DNA from: Tubiluchus corallicola | Lineage: Eukaryota > Priapulida > Priapulimorpha > Priapulimorphida > Tubiluchidae | Length of the DNA: 64,000 nucleotides | Assembly (NCBI GenBank): GCA_030141605.1 | Contig: JAQGDQ010000528.1 | Location: forward strand, 89,365 to 153,364 | Reading direction: 5' to 3' | Shown here: piece after piece, positions 145 through 52,762 of the stretch | How positions within the stretch are numbered: position 1 is the stretch's first letter | Layout: every line of letters begins with the position of its first letter | Position numbers and translations under genes: made by a program | Notes under the pieces: model-generated | The model's input: the letters and a program-made list of their open reading frames with translations, nothing else | Database searches by the model: none | Told to the model about the DNA's origin: nothing

Positions 145-258
145 CTGTTTCACAATGATTGCCTGTATAACCTGTTTTACAAGTACAAGAAAAACCACCG
201 TCTTCGTTTCTACATGTGCCCTCGTTTAGACATGGACTATCTGAACATTCATTGATAT
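145..258 (-). CDS. Gene 1 exon: EGF-like domain 6 (last visible)
   Basis: A 114-bp phase 1-1 exon encoding [10 protein letters not shown], a [11 protein letters not shown] core and HCETG, with six cysteines. It lies in the first unit of the tandem duplication. Further EGF, stalk and membrane exons of gene 1 should lie left of the window. Confidence 0.87.
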
Positions 259-51400: not shown

Positions 51401-52762
51401 ATCCGGTTTCCTAAAAAATCACATTATTATGAGAGGCTCTACTAGGTTGTTTGCGTGGAAACATGACGTAAGATCATGCCATCAGAGAATCGCACGATAC
51501 AGTTAATGACACAAAGGCGTGTTCAGGGTACCGAGTTTCACACCAAGTAACTCGTAAGTTTGTTCAGACTAGAGCGCAAAACTTGCAGCGAGTTACTTTC
51601 AACAGTAAGTGTGAGCTGACACTCACTTCTCTATCCACTGCGAAAACTACAATTGAAAAACATCTAAGCTGTTGAATGGAAACCTTGTTAAAGGTTTTCT
51701 TTAAAAGACACACATGTCATGTTATTGTAATTTAACGAACATAACTTTAGTTGAAATAATGTGAATGTCAGAAAAGTAGTTTGGACTTTGTAAACAAAGT
51801 TAATTTTGCACTTGCACTTTGCACTGTGCGTTAACTGTATAGCTTTTTTCTGTACATGTCTGTTAATTTATCACTTTTTAGCTTGTAAACATATAATCAG
51901 TAAAAAATTCTGTACTCTAGCATTTGCGTAATATAAGTGGTTATTTATTTGTATAGTCTGTCCCTGAATATGACTGCAGACTGCAGTCGAAACGTTTGGA
52001 GACTTTTAACAGTTGGCAATTTAAAGTTTAATGAAATTTGTTTTCCTTTTATAAAAATGTGAGTACCTGTAAAAATGCGTTGTTAATTGTTCTTCAAAGA
52101 ATTTAAACCTATATTGAGATAAAAGGTAAATTACCAGCTAGATTAACTCGTACAGAATGGCGTTGGTTGTTGTAAAAACTTGGTTCCTCTAGCTGTGTTA
52201 TACTGCCATAAGTTATACTGAGACTGACTAAGTATTGATTAGCTGATAGGTCTAGCTCTAGTGCTATCAAATTCTCATTTCTAGTTATAAGAAGCTCACG
52301 AAGAGAGCTCAGTTTATTGAATGCTTTTTTATGTATGCTTTCAAGCCAGAAATTAAAGCTGATGGCCACTTTTTCCACGCCACCATATATAGAATTTTCT
52401 CCTAGAGATGTCAGTTCTGTTAAACTTATAGTGAGCATTGTAGGTGACAGATCTTCTAAAAAATTGTCTGGTAATTCACGGCTTCTGTAATAAGTAATAG
52501 AAAGATGTGCTATCGACGAAGCAGCTCCTTTCATTTTTACCATCCATTGAGCAAGCTGTACTCGTTTTGCGTACAGACAGTATACATCACATTTTTTCTG
52601 ATTTTGGAACTGTACGTCTTGCGGTTTTGTATATGTGCATCTTATGGCCCTATCCTGTAGTTGTATAGCATCATACTCGCAGTGCCTGGCATTCCACGGT
52701 ACTTGTGATGCACATCTGTTAAACATACACCAAGCACTAACGAAAGTAAAAATCAAGTTCAT
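36220..52762 (-). CDS. Receptor gene 3 (complete): LRR-LRRCT-Ig-like-EGF(10)-TM, about 896 aa
   Basis: Exons in transcript order: 52135-52762, 51270-51410, 49679-50068, 49174-49287, 48511-48624, 47793-47906, 47135-47248, 46391-46504, 46023-46136, 45275-45388, 44430-44543, 43047-43160, 41588-41701, 40854-40889, 39257-39376, 38711-38749, 36220-36416. They sum to 2691 nt, exactly 897 codons with a TAA stop, with phase 1 at every internal junction. A decayed EGF exon (43998-44111) is left out. EGFs 3 to 9 are close relatives (DVNEC...VIC...ENSFTC) spread by local duplication. One membrane helix and a tail of about 80-90 residues, acidic, with no tyrosine motif. Best read as a type I surface receptor or adhesion protein; ligand and pathway unknown. 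Confidence 0.83.
37254..37455 (+). repeat. 34-bp tandem repeat, six copies
   Basis: Unit begins CCCATTGTTTGTGATTGGGT and ends with a CTGTACGTTACTGT-like word; copies start at 37254 and every 34 bp. The first two share G variants and the last four share C variants. In the intron upstream of the gene 3 tail exon. Confidence 0.92.
37456..38710. other. Gene 3 intron, no feature seen
   Basis: AT-rich intron. An ORF at 37711-37896 is not recognised and has no supporting splice context. Confidence 0.4.
38711..38749 (-). CDS. Gene 3 exon: cytoplasmic tail 1
   Basis: A 39-bp phase 1-1 exon, [13 protein letters not shown]. Acceptor TTTTTGCAG, donor CAG|GTAATT. Resembles the candidate exon 61570-61611 (S-V-P start). 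Confidence 0.6.
39257..39376 (-). CDS. Gene 3 exon: transmembrane segment
   Basis: A 120-bp phase 1-1 exon: [10 protein letters not shown], hydrophobic [19 protein letters not shown], then [11 protein letters not shown] as cytoplasmic anchor. Donor A|GTGAGT as in gene 2's exon. Confidence 0.8.
40854..40889 (-). CDS. Gene 3 exon: short stalk
   Basis: A 36-bp phase 1-1 exon, [12 protein letters not shown], Thr/Ser-rich with one NST sequon; counterpart of gene 2's stalk exon. Acceptor TTTGCAG, donor CG|GTAATT. Confidence 0.62.
41013..41348 (+). repeat. Dispersed repeat X, copy 3
   Basis: Third copy of the family at 11375-11712 and 8968-9262, with GTCAAAGGTTT, TACCGCAGCAACGCG, CGTCACGTGACATGTGAG and GCATTAGTCTGTGCG. 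In an intron of gene 3, near the stalk exon. Confidence 0.65.
41588..41701 (-). CDS. Gene 3 exon: EGF-like domain 10
   Basis: A 114-bp phase 1-1 exon: [26 protein letters not shown]. More diverged than EGFs 3-9 and the last before the stalk. Confidence 0.87.
41758..41934. repeat. (ATT)n microsatellite
   Basis: About 58 ATT triplets with a GTT interruption. Directly next to EGF exon 10 in the intron. Confidence 0.95.
42083..42230. mobile_element. Short palindromic MITE
   Basis: 148 bp, ends TGCAGTCATC and GATGACTGCA. The inner arms GATAGATTACACAAACGAAC and TTGTTTGTGTAATCTATC are inverted copies. Same family as 19552-19831; a partial relative (ATGACTGCAGACTGCAGTCG with AAACGTTT) lies near 51970. 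Confidence 0.75.
43047..43160 (-). CDS. Gene 3 exon: EGF-like domain 9
   Basis: A 114-bp phase 1-1 exon: [27 protein letters not shown]. The intron upstream in transcript order matches that of EGF 6. Confidence 0.87.
43410..43598. repeat. (ATT)/(ATC)n microsatellite
   Basis: Mixed ATT and ATC triplets, ending in about 30 pure ATT triplets. Confidence 0.94.
43998..44111 (-). pseudogene. Decayed EGF exon in gene 3
   Basis: Same 114-bp frame as its neighbours ([14 protein letters not shown]...), and still open, but cysteines 3, 4 and 5 are replaced by Tyr, Tyr and Phe, the calcium-binding Glu of DVNEC is Lys, and the acceptor AG has become TG. The donor survives. Such a module could not form two of its three disulphides; with no acceptor it should be skipped, and the phase 1-1 structure keeps the mRNA in frame. 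Confidence 0.8.
44430..44543 (-). CDS. Gene 3 exon: EGF-like domain 8
   Basis: A 114-bp phase 1-1 exon: [27 protein letters not shown]. Shares the tyrosine in CQYGG with the decayed exon next to it, its nearest relative. Confidence 0.87.
44627..44770. repeat. (CTA)n microsatellite
   Basis: About 47 CTA triplets with one ATT interruption, in the intron between EGFs 7 and 8. Confidence 0.95.
45275..45388 (-). CDS. Gene 3 exon: EGF-like domain 7
   Basis: A 114-bp phase 1-1 exon: [28 protein letters not shown] large CTA/CTG microsatellite lies just upstream in transcript order. Confidence 0.87.
45453..45735. repeat. (CTA)/(CTG)n microsatellite
   Basis: About 94 triplets alternating in blocks of CTA and CTG, with one base shift near 45701. 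Poly-Leu and poly-Ala ORFs are artefacts. Confidence 0.95.
46023..46136 (-). CDS. Gene 3 exon: EGF-like domain 6
   Basis: A 114-bp phase 1-1 exon: [27 protein letters not shown]. Its upstream and downstream intron DNA is shared with EGFs 5 and 9. Confidence 0.87.
46206..46711. repeat. Two TTG/CTG-rich imperfect triplet tracts
   Basis: 46206-46303 and 46572-46711 are imperfect TTG/CTG triplets on either side of EGF exon 5. A similar tract is at 47318-47403. The same tract position in each unit shows it was copied with the EGF unit. Confidence 0.85.
46391..46504 (-). CDS. Gene 3 exon: EGF-like domain 5
   Basis: A 114-bp phase 1-1 exon: [27 protein letters not shown]. The Gly usual after the fifth cysteine (KDGY) is Trp (KDWY), which could disturb the C-terminal loop. 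Confidence 0.86.
47135..47248 (-). CDS. Gene 3 exon: EGF-like domain 4
   Basis: A 114-bp phase 1-1 exon: [29 protein letters not shown]. Offset 658 bp from EGF 3, matching the length of the intron duplication. Confidence 0.87.
47793..47906 (-). CDS. Gene 3 exon: EGF-like domain 3
   Basis: A 114-bp phase 1-1 exon: [29 protein letters not shown]. First of the expanded subfamily; its flanking intron is a near-exact copy of that of EGF 4. Confidence 0.87.
47950..48333. repeat. (TTG)n and (ATC)n microsatellite
   Basis: Imperfect TTG/CTG triplets to about 48060, then about 70 ATC triplets with a few CAC changes and two frame-shifting CTC interruptions. Confidence 0.94.
48511..48624 (-). CDS. Gene 3 exon: EGF-like domain 2
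   Basis: A 114-bp phase 1-1 exon: [26 protein letters not shown], matching gene 1's second EGF. Donor TAG|GTAAGA. Confidence 0.86.
48812..48962. repeat. (CT)n tract
   Basis: Polypyrimidine CT dinucleotide run with TTTC variants in the intron between EGFs 1 and 2. Confidence 0.94.
49174..49287 (-). CDS. Gene 3 exon: EGF-like domain 1
   Basis: A 114-bp phase 1-1 exon: [27 protein letters not shown]. First-EGF class, close to gene 1's 7269-7382. Donor A|GTATGT. Confidence 0.86.
49679..50068 (-). CDS. Gene 3 exon: aberrant Ig-like V domain
   Basis: A 390-bp phase 1-1 exon (130 residues): [34 protein letters not shown] and [13 protein letters not shown], ending FLYVG. Same four cysteines as gene 1 and the same Trp at the F-strand cysteine position. 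Confidence 0.7.
50100..51269. other. Gene 3 intron between Ig-like and LRRCT exons
   Basis: A-rich on the plus strand, especially 50700-51130. A CGGCGACCCG word near 50284 resembles a LINE end but is too short to call. No gene seen. Confidence 0.4.
51270..51410 (-). CDS. Gene 3 exon: LRR C-terminal cap (LRRCT)
   Basis: A 141-bp phase 1-1 exon: [24 protein letters not shown] and SDDCV. The Asp between the first two cysteines of the usual C-D-C is Gly here. Donor A|GTAAGA. Confidence 0.85.
52135..52762 (-). CDS. Gene 3 exon: signal peptide + LRR ectodomain
   Basis: Encodes 209 residues plus one base. Starts [19 protein letters not shown], then QVPWN. Contains [48 protein letters not shown] and ALELDLS, closely matching gene 1, and ends VNLAG. 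Donor CTG|GTAATT. The upstream Met at 52804 is in frame, but its extension is not conserved. Confidence 0.86.

Follow-up and report, generated by a model that had tools for sequence, protein, structure and literature searches.

Tandem genes for predicted LRR-Ig-EGF membrane receptors in the priapulid Tubiluchus corallicola

The final 64,000 bases of contig C1875 of the 343.5-Mb Tubiluchus corallicola genome (positions 89365-153364 of 153364; hereafter the window) contain three adjacent receptor genes, all on the minus strand and predicted from sequence. In each, an ATG, a hydrophobic leader and leucine-rich repeats (LRRs) share one exon, followed by exons for an LRR C-terminal cap, an immunoglobulin (Ig)-like domain, a run of epidermal growth factor (EGF)-like domains and a membrane helix. 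We read them as tandem type-I membrane receptors belonging to a larger LRR gene set, with a putative ligand-binding head on an EGF stalk and a possible part in immune-type recognition, and we put the probability of this reading at roughly 0.5.

Exon chains and domain order

Splice sites and comparison among the paralogues guided the manual reconstruction of the exon chains, which were then verified jointly by script. In the scripted check they were free of stop codons, at 20 exons and 1032 amino acids for gene 1, 6 exons and 493 amino acids for gene 2, and 14 exons and 806 amino acids for gene 3. Gene 1 extends beyond the window into C1875:88326-76042, which holds ten further EGF exons and its membrane exon. 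In all three genes the length of every exon but the first is divisible by three, so that all 37 introns are in phase 1; 36 of them are GT-AG and one, with its donor after position 4924 in gene 1, is GC-AG. Signal peptides were assigned by eye. The exons are as follows, with the basis of each assignment or a comment in brackets.

52135..52762 (-) gene 3 exon 1: signal peptide, N-terminal Cys cap, LRRs (54% identity to gene 2, 63% to gene 1)
51270..51410 (-) gene 3 exon 2: LRR C-terminal cap (CxCxLxW motif, phase 1-1; family profile matches LGI1/TLR4 across cap)
49679..50068 (-) gene 3 exon 3: V-set-like Ig domain (modelled gene 1 paralogue resembles V domains)
49174..49287 (-) gene 3 EGF 1 (open chain)
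48511..48624 (-) gene 3 EGF 2 (open chain)
47793..47906 (-) gene 3 EGF 3 (open chain)
47135..47248 (-) gene 3 EGF 4 (open chain)
46391..46504 (-) gene 3 EGF 5 (open chain)
46023..46136 (-) gene 3 EGF 6 (open chain)
45275..45388 (-) gene 3 EGF 7 (open chain)
44430..44543 (-) gene 3 EGF 8 (open chain)
43998..44111 (-) gene 3 decayed EGF exon, excluded from chain (3/6 Cys and acceptor AG gone)
43047..43160 (-) gene 3 EGF 9 (open chain)
41588..41701 (-) gene 3 EGF 10 (open chain)
39257..39376 (-) gene 3 membrane-helix exon, GTGAGT donor at end (gene 1 has similar exon)
33054..33675 (-) gene 2 exon 1: signal peptide, Cys cap, LRRs (LRR_8 1.7e-6, above Pfam cut-off)
31124..31261 (-) gene 2 LRR C-terminal cap (open chain; family profile)
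29217..29609 (-) gene 2 V-set-like Ig domain (open chain; motif positions)
27315..27428 (-) gene 2 EGF 1 (open chain)
25723..25836 (-) gene 2 EGF 2 (open chain)
23327..23425 (-) gene 2 membrane-helix exon, GTGAGT donor at end (open chain)
11817..12441 (-) gene 1 exon 1: signal peptide, Cys cap, LRRs (open chain; paralogue comparison)
10281..10421 (-) gene 1 LRR C-terminal cap (open chain; family profile)
8537..8926 (-) gene 1 V-set-like Ig domain, used for modelling (model matches V domains)
7269..7382 (-) gene 1 EGF 1 (open chain)
6497..6610 (-) gene 1 EGF 2 (open chain)
4924..5037 (-) gene 1 EGF 3, GC donor (open chain)
2696..2809 (-) gene 1 EGF 4 (open chain)
1450..1563 (-) gene 1 EGF 5 (open chain)
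145..258 (-) gene 1 EGF 6 (open chain), with the further exons of gene 1 to its left
C1875:76158-76042 (-) gene 1 membrane exon, outside the window (joined in frame to last EGF exon)

The same domain order is found in four copies, genes 1-3 and a paralogue on C507, a recurrence that we count as beyond chance. The first-pass annotation had described a cluster of three same-strand paralogues, and the open chains and the repeated order confirm it; its ends, 145 and 52762, are exact, being the last in-window EGF exon of gene 1 and the start codon of gene 3. That the chains are known here from sequence alone counts against our reading and would suit an artefact of prediction, in which LRR, Ig and EGF exons of separate or decayed genes have been strung together. 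Such an artefact would also fit one dead EGF exon, the need for one GC donor and the failure to find a tail exon. However, in every chain the leader occurs solely ahead of the LRRs and the helix solely past the last EGF, the order holds in all four copies and the frames stay open across 14, 6 and 20 exons, which makes an artefact very improbable.

The LRRs are borne out by a profile search of the PDB, in which they match the follicle-stimulating hormone (FSH) receptor at 5.9e-7, and at 1e-8 in a separate search. Pfam LRR_8 scored over its cut-off in gene 2 and under it in genes 1 and 3. The Pfam scan listed no model for the LRR cap, which is identified by family profile matches to LGI1 and TLR4 that run through it. 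With signal peptide (the leader judged by eye), LRRs and cap, the genes have the features of the extracellular LRR superfamily. A predicted structure of the LRR exon was set aside at a predicted local distance difference test score (pLDDT) of 39.

Each of the 28 EGF exons spans 114 bases, a length that the script favoured for the ten outside the window, and encodes an EGF module of the Notch type. Their number is 2 in gene 2, 10 in gene 3 and 16 in gene 1 with the exons outside the window included, in keeping with the range of 2 to 10 or more given at first pass. Five EGF-exon units of gene 1 share 94.2-98.7% identity across 1186-1240 aligned bases, and a sixth is at ~60%; these near-identical units, together with the dead exon of gene 3, which has lost three Cys and its acceptor AG, show that EGF modules arise and decay through unit duplication. 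An assembly error in the gene 1 repeats is possible. With the last EGF exon running in frame into the membrane exon, the separate stalk proposed earlier becomes unnecessary, and no stalk exon passed a splice-site scan of the gene 2 and 3 tails, a weak negative in that its thresholds missed the gene 3 membrane exon too.

A membrane exon is present in all four copies, in agreement with the single helix first proposed, and that of gene 2 has a TNFR_16_TM Pfam match under cut-off (1e-4). Because a GTRAGT donor closes this exon in four of four copies, with a similar site in a related gene on C1432, a tail exon probably exists downstream; with the donor unused, genes 1, 2 and C507 would reach a stop codon only a few residues further on. 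The tail exon was not found: tblastx among the four tails gave low-complexity or chance-like matches only, and no convincing candidate emerged from acceptor-started peptides in an anchored comparison, the C507 search covering ~2 kb past the membrane exon. The short tail of the first-pass annotation is thus not established.

The Ig-like domain and sequence divergence

The predicted structure of the gene 1 Ig exon matches V domains and suggests a V-set fold. In genes 1-3 and C507 the positions that would carry the canonical B-F strand disulphide, as judged by motif, are occupied by Leu (strand B) and by Leu or Tyr (strand F). Cysteines are conserved elsewhere in the domain, one pair in five of five aligned sequences and a second in four of five, and a disulphide between strands B and E is predicted in place of the B-F one. 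A five-member Ig profile searched against the PDB was led by CEACAM1 (0.015) and Dscam (0.032), with glyoxalase (0.3) and cholesterol oxidase (~1.5) also present. The Ig-like domain noted at first pass is therefore borne out as a V-set-like fold by the model and this profile.

Among the four paralogues (six pairs per exon), nonsynonymous divergence (dN) is 0.26-0.42 for the LRR exon, 0.26-0.42 for the cap and 0.49-0.63 for the Ig exon, which is the fastest-changing part. Synonymous divergence (dS) ranges from 0.57 to 3.1; two Ig pairs gave no value. The dN/dS ratio is below 1 in all 16 computable comparisons out of 18 across the LRR, cap and Ig exons, more than chance would give, with many dS values saturated. 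Ratios above 1 occur in only 3 of 28 pairs among gene 3 EGF 3-10, whose 37 codons each are too short to weigh. Positive selection is not supported by these comparisons.

Variation within the cluster can be followed on C1432, whose positions 1-13579 align piecewise to window positions 50016-63981 at 93.5-97.7% identity. Most simply C1432 would be the other haplotype, continuing the cluster; alternatively, it may be a recent duplication. Over the 209 codons compared in the LRR exon of gene 3, this one haplotype pair shows 8 differing codons, three with replacements (codons 11, 26 and 36) and five with silent changes (dN 0.006, dS 0.046). The cap exon is identical, and the second haplotype covers only 17 codons of the Ig exon.

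These figures bear on the suggestion that the cluster is an allorecognition locus encoding highly polymorphic self/non-self receptors, comparable to Hydractinia Alr and Botryllus fuhc. Like those, it consists of clustered invertebrate immunoglobulin superfamily genes, here of type I and with a V-set-like domain that lacks the canonical cysteines, and, in the portion of the source that we cite, the fuhc locus is described as encoding Ig and EGF proteins, fuhc-sec having a signal sequence, Ig and two EGFs (PMC12065747). However, the same portion names no LRR for fuhc or Alr proteins, no high polymorphism is shown in our cluster, and all three replacements in the LRR exon fall within codons 1-36. 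One allele pair compared over the LRR and cap exons does not support allorecognition, which we regard as improbable. Of the overall interpretation offered at first pass, paralogy, LRRs, cap, Ig, EGFs and helix stand, whereas the separate stalk, the short tail and allorecognition gain no support so far.

Known receptor families and candidate role

Searches of public proteins (NCBI, UniRef and EukProt animals) require shared 5-residue words and similar length, so that distant relatives can escape. Within that scope, none of 3485 candidates matched gene 2 residues 1-385 at E<=0.001, and none of 2807 matched the four-paralogue LRR-cap-Ig alignment at E<=0.1. A three-paralogue alignment with two EGFs added matched 29 of 4561 at E<=0.01; we read these as probable EGF matches because of their low local coverage (14-35%) and EGF-type Pfam domains. 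A literature search by title and abstract start revealed no named family with an LRR-Ig-EGF order, a weak negative with most subscription papers outside its coverage. Within these limits the combination was found in no described family, in line with the first-pass annotation, which knew of none.

Several known families share part of it. LRIG, LINGO, AMIGO and LRRC4 comprise a signal peptide, LRRs, an LRR cap, Ig and one membrane helix, and the family profile matches LRIG1 (9.4e-7), LRRC4 (2.8e-4) and, weakly, LINGO1 (0.09). The cluster genes differ in their 2-16 EGFs and in a V-set-like Ig without the canonical disulphide, and from LRIG, with its three Ig domains and no EGF, also in having one Ig-like exon. 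Vasorin combines LRR, EGF and a membrane helix, with FN3 between EGF and membrane, whereas here a V-set-like Ig accompanies the 2-16 EGFs, the last EGF exon abuts the membrane exon and the gene 2 Pfam matches include no FN3. Slit has capped LRRs and Notch-type EGFs, as the cluster genes do, and the family profile matches Slit2 (3e-5); however, Slit is a secreted protein that has multiple LRR blocks and, after the EGFs, a laminin-G domain, whereas the cluster genes have one LRR block, an Ig and, in four of four copies, a membrane exon after the EGFs. Peroxidasin shares the LRR-then-Ig order and differs by its peroxidase enzyme and lack of EGF. Toll-like receptors have a cytoplasmic TIR domain, and in the cluster genes no tail exon was found. 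Lamprey variable lymphocyte receptors are LRR recognition proteins without Ig or EGF, unlike the cluster genes, although some LRR genes in this genome likewise end in what by eye resembles a glycosylphosphatidylinositol (GPI) signal; gene assembly was neither seen nor searched for. A precedent comes from amphioxus, in which bacteria-binding and phagocytosis were mediated by an LRR protein that is fused with a folate-receptor domain and has a predicted GPI site, according to the portion of the report cited (PMC10199209).

In the mechanism that we envisage, a short LRR block and a V-set-like fold would together make up an N-terminal ligand-binding head, the Notch-type EGF stalk would set its distance from the membrane, and duplication or loss of 114-base EGF exons would alter that distance. 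One helix would anchor the receptor, and signalling might proceed through a tail encoded in a later exon, or through a very short tail and a signalling partner. We infer that the chains are transcribed as read and that their products reach the cell surface, bind ligands and recognise microbes or foreign cells rather than serve developmental adhesion. Three points incline us to immune-type recognition, for which, as a role, the odds are about even: public relatives were not found, other LRR genes lie nearby and the Ig domain changes fast. Few copies and constrained LRR alleles lean the other way, to adhesion.

Adhesion would mean that the LRR-Ig head and Notch-like EGF stalk make fixed cell-cell contacts in development or the nervous system, after lineage-specific duplication. 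LINGO, AMIGO, LRIG and Slit/Robo are contact systems of this kind, and many LRR_Ig/FN3 proteins act in the nervous system. In the portion of a survey cited here, which covers worm, fly, mouse and human, nearly every LRR_Ig/FN3 protein is tied to the plasma membrane (PMC2235866). The constraint on the gene 3 LRR exon between haplotypes and the count of only four close Ig copies fit such a role. Against it, the LRR-cap-Ig part has no public relative, which would be unexpected for a conserved developmental receptor, other LRR genes adjoin on the same strand and the Ig domain diverges fast, and we consider adhesion a minority possibility.

Several further observations weigh against immune-type recognition or the receptor reading as a whole. 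Of 8 candidates scored genome-wide, 4 match the Ig exon, namely those of genes 1-3 and C507, few for a repertoire; nine LRR matches lie in open frames of more than 900 codons and may be other LRR genes. Paralogue dN/dS stays below 1, and comparison of the haplotypes shows constraint on the gene 3 LRR exon. When the Ig exons of genes 1-3 were profiled on their own against the PDB, all three matches were weak and to non-Ig proteins, with glyoxalase first (0.038). The search for a tail exon having failed, no signalling motif came to light either.

More tentatively, the cluster may belong to a recognition system not described before, in which two-headed receptors (LRR plus disulphide-shifted V-set) on variable EGF stalks would form an immune or self/non-self repertoire within a lineage-specific LRR gene set that includes GPI-like, Ser/Thr-stalk and LRR-Ig forms. 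If real as proteins, these receptors would unite three recognition modules that are usually separate, on a stalk whose length varies through exon duplication inside one genome, and would offer a testable case of a lineage-specific LRR and V-set receptor set outside the known ones of vertebrates.

Related LRR genes and other features of the locus

A genome search with the gene 3 LRR exon scored 150 of 404 candidates, and all 150 matched at E<=0.001, a lower bound for LRR exons and not a gene number. Further copies do lie beyond the window, where the first-pass annotation had suggested looking. C507 carries LRR, cap, Ig and two EGFs, with a membrane exon ~9 kb on, past a long satellite (exons located separately). 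C2153 carries LRR, cap, half of a canonical V-set domain with its Cys in strand F, and two EGFs; neither the first Ig half nor a membrane exon after the EGFs was found within the 25 kb examined. The cluster would continue on C1432, where individually located exons upstream of gene 3 and on the same strand encode an LRR, a cap, a Ser/Thr linker, an Ig domain and a membrane helix in that order, with no EGF found.

Further along C1432 ten LRR and ten cap matches alternate in an array. On the same contig, L021-L023 (C1432:37353-57382) has alternating LRR and cap matches with Ser/Thr-rich linkers in several ~1.35 kb units and resembles a single gene with multiple LRR blocks. To the left of gene 1, an LRR exon followed by a cap exon (L012, C1875:52473-54148, plus strand) has a C-terminus that appears GPI-like by eye, as do the near-identical repeated LRR genes of C2203:25000-34999 (L035), each made of two overlapping frames. 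LRR matches on C786 are mirror-symmetric with equal scores, suggesting an assembly palindrome or an inverted duplication.

An Rfam scan of the whole window gave no matches. A COX1 search likewise gave no match, its control being detected in 8 of 14, nor did one for mollusc haemocyanin, whose control was detected in none and which is thus uninformative. Between genes 2 and 1 lie two satellites, at 18313-19238 (18-base unit, ~51 copies) and 21144-22319 (27-base unit, ~44 copies). The gene 1 LRR-cap intron contains an inverted repeat (10444-11227), probably a fold-back element, and an open frame at 13351-13740 on the plus strand may be a fragment of a long interspersed nuclear element (LINE), which it resembles.

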